Of a stretch of DNA of 64,000 nucleotides, positions 50,145 through 52,385 are shown one piece after another. Origin of the DNA: Sphingomonas sp. Lineage in GTDB: Bacteria > Pseudomonadota > Alphaproteobacteria > Sphingomonadales > Sphingomonadaceae. Both the position numbers and the translations under genes were made by a program. The DNA lies in the NCBI GenBank assembly GCA_017304655.1, contig JAFKLY010000004.1, positions 1 through 64,000 on the forward strand, read 5' to 3'. The notes beneath the pieces are model-generated. The model did no database searches and was not told the DNA's origin. It saw only the letters and a list, made by a program, of their open reading frames with translations. How positions within the stretch are numbered: position 1 is the stretch's first letter; each line of letters opens with the position of its first letter.

Positions 50145-51209
50145 CTAGAACAGGCGACCCTGGTCGCTGGGTGGTACGAACAGGTCGTTGCGCAGCGCGA
50201 TACGGCCGATGTCGAGGCCATGGCGTGCGCGTGCCTTCTCGAACCGGGTTCGGATGAGGTCGGCATAGGCGCCTTGCCCGCGCATCCGGCTGCCGAACGC
50301 CGGATCATTGTCGCGCCCGCCGCGCATGTCGCGGATCTGGTTCATCACCTTGTCGGCCCTGTCCGGATGATGCGTGGCCAGCCAGTCGCGGAACAAGGGC
50401 GCAACCTCGAAGGGAAGGCGCACTGGAATGTAGGAGACCGAACGCGCGCCCGCGTCCGCCGCGGCCGCGACCAGCGCCTCGATCTCATGATCGTTGATGG
50501 CCGGGATGATTGGCGAGAGACAGGCATTCACCGGCACCCCCGCCTCGGCCAGTGCCCGAACGGCGGCGAGGCGCTTGCGCGGATGCGGCGCGCGCGGCTC
50601 CAGCGTGCGGGAGAGCGCGGCATCGAGACTGGTGATCGAAAGGCCGACAGCGACCAGGCCTTGCGCGGCCATGGGCGCGAGCAGGTCGATGTCATGCGTC
50701 ACCCGGTCCGACTTGGTCGTGATCATCAGTGGATGGAGGCAATCGGCGAGCACCTCGACGCATGCGCGCGTGATCCGGTAGCGTCCCTCGATCGGCTGAT
50801 AGGGGTCCGTGTTCGTCCCCATCGCGATCGTCTCGACCCGATAGCCGCGCTTGCCAAGCTCGGCGCGCAACAGCCGAGCCGCATCCGGCTTCACGAACAG
50901 CCGGCTCTCGAAATCCAGGCCCGGCGAGAGATCGAGCCGGGCATGGCTGGGCCGGGCAAAGCAATAGATGCAGCCATGCTCGCAGCCCGAAAACACGTTC
51001 ACAGACTGGGAAAATCCCACATCTGGTGAGTCGTTTTGTGTGATGATGGTTCGTGCTTTGAGCGGCGTTACCGATGTCCGAAGTCGCGGAATTCCTCCAT
51101 CAATGTCGTTAATTTCGTCAAGCCAATCGCCATCGGCCTCTCGTTCCGGCAGATTGAACCGGCGGCTGGTCCGACTGTGCGTTGCGCCTCGTCCACGTTC
51201 GATAGGCAT
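50145..51209 (-). CDS. PA0069-family radical SAM protein, chimeric 5' end
   Basis: 354 aa. Radical SAM Cys motif CEHGCIYC (about 78-85) in FSGCEHGCIYCFARPSHA is present. Other blocks are GTNTDPYQPIEGRYRITRACVEVL, LMITTKSDRVTHDIDLL and NACLSPIIPAINDHEIEALV. Family function is unknown; members resemble spore photoproduct lyase-type enzymes (SplB). A LexA-like box lies 11 bp before its ATG (51220-51234). About the first 75 codons (50989-51209) have GC near 54%, below the rest of the gene, and a second, decayed version of that same segment lies at 52123-52360. This suggests the N-terminus was replaced by an incoming element. Full-length and intact. Confidence 0.85.
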   Translation of the reverse strand: MPIERGRGATHSRTSRRFNLPEREADGDWLDEINDIDGGIPRLRTSVTPLKARTIITQNDSPDVGFSQSVNVFSGCEHGCIYCFARPSHARLDLSPGLDFESRLFVKPDAARLLRAELGKRGYRVETIAMGTNTDPYQPIEGRYRITRACVEVLADCLHPLMITTKSDRVTHDIDLLAPMAAQGLVAVGLSITSLDAALSRTLEPRAPHPRKRLAAVRALAEAGVPVNACLSPIIPAINDHEIEALVAAAADAGARSVSYIPVRLPFEVAPLFRDWLATHHPDRADKVMNQIRDMRGGRDNDPAFGSRMRGQGAYADLIRTRFEKARARHGLDIGRIALRNDLFVPPSDQGRLF

Positions 51210-51219
51210 TACTTAATAA

Positions 51220-51234
51220 GAACATAAAGTGAAC
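51220..51234 (-). promoter_or_regulatory. LexA-type (SOS) box of the radical SAM gene
   Basis: GAAC-ATAAAGT-GAAC, i.e. GTTC-N7-GTTC read on the minus strand, the established LexA site of alphaproteobacteria. It ends 11 bp before the ATG at 51209 and lies 60 bp before the divergent DUF4145 start, so it may control both. Confidence 0.8.
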
Positions 51235-51294
51235 ATATTGTCAAGGACTATCATATCGGCTAGGGGGTGCATTCATTCGCAAAGGTCAGAAGCT

Positions 51295-52080
51295 ATGCCA
51301 GCATTTAATTGGACTTGCCCGCATTGTGGTCGTGACCAGTCAGTTGTTGACCAGAAGTATCACGATATCGCTGTTCCAATAAATGTCGGCGGCTCGGCGG
51401 AAGGGAATGTTAGTGCTTGTGCATTGGCGATTGGCTGCGCAAATCCGGATTGCAAAAAGACAAGTGTTTGGTTCTCAGTAAGAAGAAATAGAGGATTCAA
51501 TTCGAATTACGCTGTGAATAATGATGCTGATCCACTCTATCATCGCCGTGCTATTCCAACAAGTTCTGCGAAGAATCAACCGTCGTTTGTTCCGGAGCCT
51601 TTGGTAGAGGATTACACTGAGGCATGTCTAATTCGCGACGACAGCCCAAAGGCTTCAGCTACTCTTGCACGCCGGTGCATTCAGGGAATGATCCGTGATT
51701 TTTGCGGAATCAAGAAGGCGACGCTCGCAAAGGAAATTGAAGCTTTGCGAGCGTTGGTTGATGAGGGGCAGGCTCCAGCGGGAGTGACACATGAAACAGT
51801 CGACGCAATCGACCACGTGCGCTCAATCGGCAATATCGGCGCGCATATGGAAAAGGAGATTGACCTCATAATTCCAGTTGATCCTGATGAGGCTCAGGTC
51901 CTGATTGAGTTGATCGAGATGTTATTTGAGGAATGGTACGTGGCGCGAGACACGAGGCAGAGGAAGCTGGCCGCAATCAGTAAAATCGGGGCAGATAAGA
52001 AACAACTCATTGCAGACGGACGAGCCGTGTCAAATGCGTTGATTCCTCCAGGGAATAATGACGGCCAAGCTGGCGTGTAG
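51295..52080 (+). CDS. DUF4145 protein with N-terminal zinc ribbon
   Basis: 261 aa. The N-terminal 60 residues have a zinc-ribbon pattern (CPHC at 8-11, C48-x4-C53). The C-terminal part (about 105-215) matches DUF4145, with SPKASATLARRCIQGMIRDFC and VRSIGNIGAHMEKEIDLIIP. DUF4145 is a HEPN-related domain found in restriction and other phage-defence loci (family knowledge); no RNase motif is clear. GC about 47%, far below the neighbours, indicates transfer. ATG at 51295 has AAAGG about 9 bp upstream; a GTG at 51229 would place the start in the SOS box and is less likely. It is the only cargo between two direct repeats. Confidence 0.8.
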   Translation: MPAFNWTCPHCGRDQSVVDQKYHDIAVPINVGGSAEGNVSACALAIGCANPDCKKTSVWFSVRRNRGFNSNYAVNNDADPLYHRRAIPTSSAKNQPSFVPEPLVEDYTEACLIRDDSPKASATLARRCIQGMIRDFCGIKKATLAKEIEALRALVDEGQAPAGVTHETVDAIDHVRSIGNIGAHMEKEIDLIIPVDPDEAQVLIELIEMLFEEWYVARDTRQRKLAAISKIGADKKQLIADGRAVSNALIPPGNNDGQAGV

Positions 52081-52122
52081 CTCATAAAGTATTGAAATCA
52101 TTCGTTTACAACCGTGTAATGC

Positions 52123-52360
52123 TGCTCGCAGCCCCTGAACGCATTGATCGACTGACTGAAGCCGAAGTCAGGCGAGTTGTTCCGCGAGATGATCGTGTCC
52201 GCGTCCGTTCTTCCGTAACCAGTGTGCGCAGAGGCGGAAGGGCGTCTTCCTCGACCGTGAGCGTCCGGTCGATCCAGTCGCCGTCCGTCTCTCGTCCGGG
52301 CAGTGAAAACCGGTTCGATTCGACGTTGGATGGGGCGCCACGGCCCTTGATCGCAGGCAT
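52123..52360 (-). pseudogene. Displaced 5' fragment of the radical SAM gene
   Basis: This encodes a homologue of only the first ~79 codons of the gene at 51209: it starts MPAIKGRGAPSN... with FSLPGRETDGDWID, then, after a 1-nt frameshift near 52195-52205, continues TIISRNNSPDFGFSQSINAF and stops matching right after RGCEQ, at the repeat TGCTCGCAGCCC. GC is about 60%, closer to the chromosome than the corresponding part of the intact gene. Its own LexA-like box lies 11 bp upstream. It is best read as the native 5' end, cut off by the inserted cassette. Confidence 0.75.
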
Positions 52361-52370
52361 GGATGAATGA

Positions 52371-52385
52371 GAACATAAAAAGAAC
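52371..52385 (-). promoter_or_regulatory. Second LexA-type (SOS) box, before the fragment
   Basis: GAAC-ATAAAAA-GAAC, 11 bp before the ATG of the fragment (52360), the same layout as at 51220-51234. It probably marks the native, now displaced promoter. Confidence 0.75.

Follow-up and report, generated by a model that had tools for sequence, protein, structure and literature searches.

In the stretch of Sphingomonas sp. DNA analysed here, called the window (64,000 nt; GCA_017304655.1, contig JAFKLY010000004.1, positions 1-64,000, forward strand), an intact radical SAM (rSAM) gene and a second, truncated rSAM 5' end flank an unrelated low-GC gene. How did one gene come to have two beginnings, and what placed another gene between them? 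The earlier note, made from the sequence alone, read the arrangement as an insertion in which the incoming DNA rebuilt the host gene by supplying a new promoter and about 75 codons. We compared the locus with uninterrupted genes of relatives, with similar loci in other genomes and with viral contigs.

Architecture of the locus

The features of the locus are listed in Table 1. The intact rSAM gene and the low-GC DUF4145 gene between the flanks, both described in the earlier note, were recognised by family models (PF13643 with 1.2e-10 for the DUF4145 protein), and the GC content was 0.49 in the insert versus 0.67 in the host 3' part. The 12-mer TGCTCGCAGCCC, noticed before at both junctions, indeed has only two copies within the window, at 50977 and 52123, with a spacing of 1,146 bp. 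The cut 5' copy of the same description is real and native but requires a correction: it is a frameshifted pseudogene, in which the rSAM match is broken across two frames (residues 1-69 and 48-78). A LexA-type box (GTTC-N7-GTTC) is present at both rSAM 5' ends of the window, the incoming and the displaced.

Table 1. Features of the rSAM locus, in window positions
Feature	Position	Strand	Evidence or remark
Restored radical SAM gene, PA0069 family	50145-51209	-	NF033668 6.6e-136
Host 3' part of the restored rSAM gene	50145-50976	-	
Incoming 5' part of the restored rSAM gene	50977-51209	-	
Core repeat TGCTCGCAGCCC, right junction (putative attR), codons of the first cluster Cys	50977-50988		
Incoming first ~75 rSAM codons	50989-51209	-	GC 0.55 vs 0.67 in the 3' part
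LexA-type box GTTC-N7-GTTC, incoming promoter, between the divergent rSAM and DUF4145 genes	51220-51234	-	
DUF4145 ORF	51229-52080	+	likely ATG at 51295
Cargo gene, Zn-ribbon and DUF4145 (HEPN clan), PD-T7-4-like	51295-52080	+	PF13643, PDLC04109, alignment with phage-borne homologues
Cassette left end (putative attP half-site) GCATTACACGGTTGTAAACGAA	52101-52122	-	left-end motif common to cassettes; match to right half of phage attP
Core repeat TGCTCGCAGCCC, left junction (putative attL)	52123-52134		
Displaced native rSAM 5' end, frameshifted pseudogene	52123-52360	-	
LexA-type box, displaced native promoter	52371-52385	-	

The cargo protein also matched the PADLOC PD-T7-4 model PDLC04109 (4.4e-13), and its alignment with phage-borne homologues showed conserved C-x2-C pairs (the Zn-ribbon cysteines) and a GNxGAH motif. 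The DUF4145 family has been assigned to the HEPN superfamily (PMC3710099). Close relatives of the protein (45-54% identity) were found in 15 IMG/VR viral contigs (L109-L123). From these similarities, the cargo may act against phage.

Origin of the two 5' ends

When the flanks were joined at the 12-mer, leaving out one 12-mer and the intervening DNA (1,146 bp in all), they aligned as a single HSP of 1.09 to 1.11 kb (74-78%) with the uninterrupted gene of four relatives (G090, G072, G061 and G027), as opposed to two HSPs for the unmodified window; the repeat arrangement is thus not a product of chance. The restored gene was colinear with these empty sites only up to a conserved block ending at 51056, and upstream synteny continued from the truncated copy (53.0-53.4 and 54.0-55.3 kb). 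The single HSP and the upstream synteny together identify the truncated copy as the native 5' end. By this comparison, the truncated copy is the ancestral 5' end, and the first ~75 codons of the intact gene arrived with the insert.

The N-terminal sequences agree with this assignment. NAY[R/A/H]GC was the native ending of the N-terminal part in all of the 25 empty-site genes examined, and the restored genes lacked it. In a tree of the N-terminal parts (76 columns, with many forks unresolved and the new N-termini not forming one clade), displaced copies grouped with native N-termini, that of the window among those of same-genus genes with support of 100/95. The new N-termini stood apart from the native ones, with 4 label changes compared to a shuffled mean of 10 (0 of 500 shuffles as low), and that of the window paired with that of G050 (support 96/81). 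The correlation between N-terminal and C-terminal distances was tried as a class marker and rejected, as it did not separate the classes (0.60 for displaced copies, 0.55 for new ends).

The main proposals of the earlier note held here. The rebuilding of the host gene is borne out by the colinearity of the joined flanks with four relatives and by the LexA-type box at both 5' ends, and the expected empty sites, with an uninterrupted gene whose 5' end resembles the displaced copy, appeared both in the four end-to-end alignments and in the 100/95 clade. Two findings had been named that would speak against an insertion. One was an ancestral N-terminus in the intact gene, which the NAY[R/A/H]GC ending argues against. 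The other was a truncated copy in relatives without the cargo; one such copy, in G159, precedes a gene deletion (residues 79-163) and not an intact gene. In this genome (L074, C120:120553-121337), the rSAM 5' part stops at the insertion codons and continues directly with residue 164; a deletion that starts at the insertion point is perhaps the scar of a lost element. A separate observation concerns the upstream region, where the window gene at 53.0-53.45 kb matched two adjacent places in G031 (L064, about 783-1756) with 68% and 81%, which suggests a local duplication upstream of the rSAM locus.

Recurrence and anatomy of the cassettes

We surveyed 94 genomes of the genus, 398 of the family, 385 of the class and 141 of another genus with the rSAM protein; these sets overlap. 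At least 12 further loci cut at the same codons were found in Sphingomonadaceae. A second rSAM copy, comprising the N-terminal part only, lay immediately upstream of the downstream part in each of them: G031, G050, G055, G059, G161, G187, G195, G200, G221, G442, G925 and G937. The family search scored five candidates per genome, so the locus counts are lower bounds. Beyond the family, the class survey (385 genomes) revealed no cassettes: in G656 a normal gene seems to span a contig break, and G544 holds a decayed gene. An exact motif scan of genome contigs recovered the G161 locus only, its pattern being too strict.

The 13 loci have a common anatomy. Displaced copies stop at TGCGAGCA, where the first cluster Cys is encoded, with slight differences from locus to locus. 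The inserts measure 0.63 to 1.37 kb and contain one main ORF each, in varying orientation (start codons were assigned mechanically); their GC content is 0.49-0.58 compared to 0.61-0.72 in the host 3' parts. The left end is common over ~25-30 bp, with a likeness of 0.43 versus 0.25 (z = 14), and the right end (220-270 bp) consists of a new rSAM 5' end, in most cases accompanied by a LexA-type box. Nearly every native or displaced 5' end is preceded by such a box, as are most new ones. Cassettes of different genera agree over both ends while their cargo is unrelated: it is a DUF2199 gene in G055 and a protein matching PADLOC PDC-S60 (4e-31) in G937; other cassette cargo had no Pfam match. No recombinase was matched by the main ORFs of these inserts (0.6-1.4 kb).

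The other predictions of the earlier note can be read from these loci: duplicated, truncated rSAM 5' ends do occur elsewhere, different cargo occupies the same codons, and the inserts lack a recombinase match, as the proposed lack of an integrase implied. The picture of a single insertion with gene restoration has to be widened. Restoration stands for the window, but the window is one of a family, and the insert of G937 does not restore the rSAM 5' end, so restoration is usual and not universal.

Highly conserved rSAM codons could anchor one side of a homology-assisted illegitimate recombination with foreign DNA, and a local duplication followed by divergence would likewise give two 5' ends. 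The other junction lies at the same codons in all loci, beside the common left-end motif, and a fixed second junction contradicts such recombination; in addition, the new 5' ends fall in another group than the displaced copies, with differences of 28-49% between the two. Either origin is therefore highly improbable. The sequences themselves show a site-specific insertion that restored its target gene. We consider it likely that what inserted was a mobile cassette, which entered the first-cluster-Cys codons of an rSAM gene whose promoter is of LexA type.

A phage serine integrase as the candidate recombinase

In two IMG/VR contigs, phage genes lead into an rSAM gene whose 5' end is different again, and the stretch read contained no LexA-type box. 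These two phage contigs gave no match to PF00589; the recombinase turned out to be a serine recombinase. In IMGVR_UViG_3300031134_000334 (L126), CTCACTCAAAGTGACACGCTACCCGCCCCTGCGACCACGCATACACGGTTGTGTAGTG lies just before a serine-recombinase ORF (PF00239 6.4e-13, and PF07508). The G937 insert has the right half of CTCACTCAAAGTGACACGCTACCCGCCCCTGCGACCACGCATACACGGTTGTGTAGTG as its left end (29/29) and the left half as its right end (28/31). By these matches CTCACTCAAAGTGACACGCTACCCGCCCCTGCGACCACGCATACACGGTTGTGTAGTG is a putative attP, its halves corresponding to both G937 ends as expected of one. The left end of the window scored 24 against the right half of the phage attP, compared to a maximum of 18 in 4,000 random draws. 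Common att sites thus extend to both ends in G937 and to the left end in the window; the match is weak for the left ends of G031, G200 and G221 (p about 0.05 only) and absent for that of G050.

In this contig the recombinase ORF is cut and continues into a prohead-protease-like fragment, and the record could therefore be defective or chimeric. Apart from an att junction, the contig has genes of ParA, capsid and tail type and an rSAM gene at its end; it may represent two elements in tandem, or be chimeric. Its att junction is tandem-like, to be read with this possible chimerism in mind. A serine integrase was not seen together with a 5'-restoring small cassette, and the best att match, G937, is unrestored. 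Looser motif scans of viral contigs gave 35 matches in varied contexts, without a serine-recombinase or rSAM match, which were treated as chance, as was a match inside a helicase-like ORF (L128). Xer/dif and integron attC sites were inspected only by eye and then set aside. The enzyme that moves the cassettes is probably a phage-type serine integrase, an assignment that the att comparisons support well for some cassettes and weakly for others.

Proposed mechanism and known integrative elements

In the proposed mechanism, a cassette would start on the left with a ~25-bp attP half-site, followed by one cargo gene (DUF4145 in the window), and would close on the right with a LexA-type promoter and the ~75 initial codons of an rSAM gene. 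On integration, the rSAM 5' end of the host would be displaced and then decay, while that of the cassette would be joined in frame to the host 3' part and keep the rSAM gene whole; the restored protein presumably works. Since the cassette has no recombinase gene, it would be moved by another element, the best candidate being a phage-type serine integrase whose attP belongs to the family of the cassette half-site. This integrase would perform the recombination, and the cassettes would be mobilised in trans and move as units.

Alternatively, the inserts could be scars, left when larger prophages or islands with a restoring 5' end decayed to two ends and one gene, with no movement of single genes. 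Integrated elements are known to decay to att-flanked CIMEs (PMC5704250), a new rSAM 5' end is present in phage contigs, and DUF4145 relatives are common in IMG/VR contigs; yet all 13 inserts keep to the narrow size range with one main ORF, the surveys revealed no intermediate sizes but only two islands of another type, and both ends are common between genera while the cargo is unrelated. Uniform size and common ends with unrelated cargo favour units over scars, and decay seems to us unlikely. More tentatively, movement as units may be part of a phage-dependent cassette system of sphingomonads, for which we put the chances somewhat short of even. Integrase-less one-gene cassettes, some of them defence-like, would rely on the serine integrases of temperate phages for entry into one codon block of an rSAM gene under LexA-type control, and would carry a working replacement 5' end, so that N-terminus and promoter would be exchanged between genera at each insertion.

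Large elements that bring their own integrase are known to restore the gene they enter, in tRNA genes and in a few coding genes. At the present loci, such restoration occurs in a minimal, recombinase-free, single-gene cassette that recurs with differing cargo. Restoration of the 5' end of the target has been reported for dusA-targeting prophages and islands and for SXT at prfC (PMC4482086; IMEVchUSA3, PMC8409611). With these elements the cassettes appear to share a replacement 5' end and promoter, in frame inside a coding gene. However, dusA and SXT elements are large and encode a tyrosine integrase, whereas the cassettes are 0.6-1.4 kb long with one main gene and encode no integrase of their own; the target here is an rSAM gene with a LexA-type box, and the att family would be that of a serine recombinase. 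CIMEs are integrase-less att-flanked elements (PMC5704250), and the cassettes resemble them in having attL and attR flanks without integration or transfer genes. They differ in being single-gene and uniformly small, with common ends and 5' restoration, and accretion with a functional element was not seen for them in a cellular genome. Integron gene cassettes likewise hold one ORF, varied and mostly of unknown function; in contrast, the cargo here lies in either orientation at a fixed coding-gene target, and the ends do not fit attC core sites on inspection. We found no description of this rSAM site or of single-gene restoring cassettes in the open-licence literature. Relative to the large integrase-encoding precedents, single-gene, integrase-less, target-restoring cassettes appear to be new. 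The duplicated, truncated rSAM 5' end is a simple marker for finding them and small unknown genes, including possible defence genes. Whether phages and small passenger elements have an attachment site in common, within a gene under a DNA-damage-type promoter, also becomes testable here.

Tyrosine-recombinase islands at the same codons

Two large islands, in G473 and G253, occupy the same rSAM codons. They contain four-gene sets encoding 431/624/729/158 and 436/664/819/165 aa, respectively, and the first protein of the G473 set is a tyrosine recombinase. The four-gene recombinase layout resembles that of GInts (ginABCD, PMC5385486) and SEs (core genes, PMC10214605); the small cassettes have other ends and none of these genes. 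A quartet of this kind might have moved the cassettes, as its target codons are identical and its first recombinase occurs in just two of 398 genomes, each time at the rSAM site. But the left and right ends of the islands differ from those of the cassettes, which match a serine-recombinase attP instead, and the gene is not restored at the islands' own junction. ginABCD is absent from the cassettes, and the first recombinase was not found in the window's genome at E 1e-20. GinA relatives were found neither in viral contigs nor in other members of the G473 and G253 genera. Movement by the quartet is accordingly improbable, and a phage-type serine integrase remains the preferred candidate.

In G473, 45 kb separate the two rSAM parts (C1:92794-138637, L059-L061), and a separate, intact low-GC rSAM gene lies between them, together with a Cas9-type protein (1,054 aa), an MmeI-type restriction-modification protein and the recombinase quartet. 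A relative of this quartet, its first protein 45% identical, is found on plasmid pSES189 of Sphingobium yanoikuyae (79695-98933, L098), with TIR-domain and abortive-infection genes close by.
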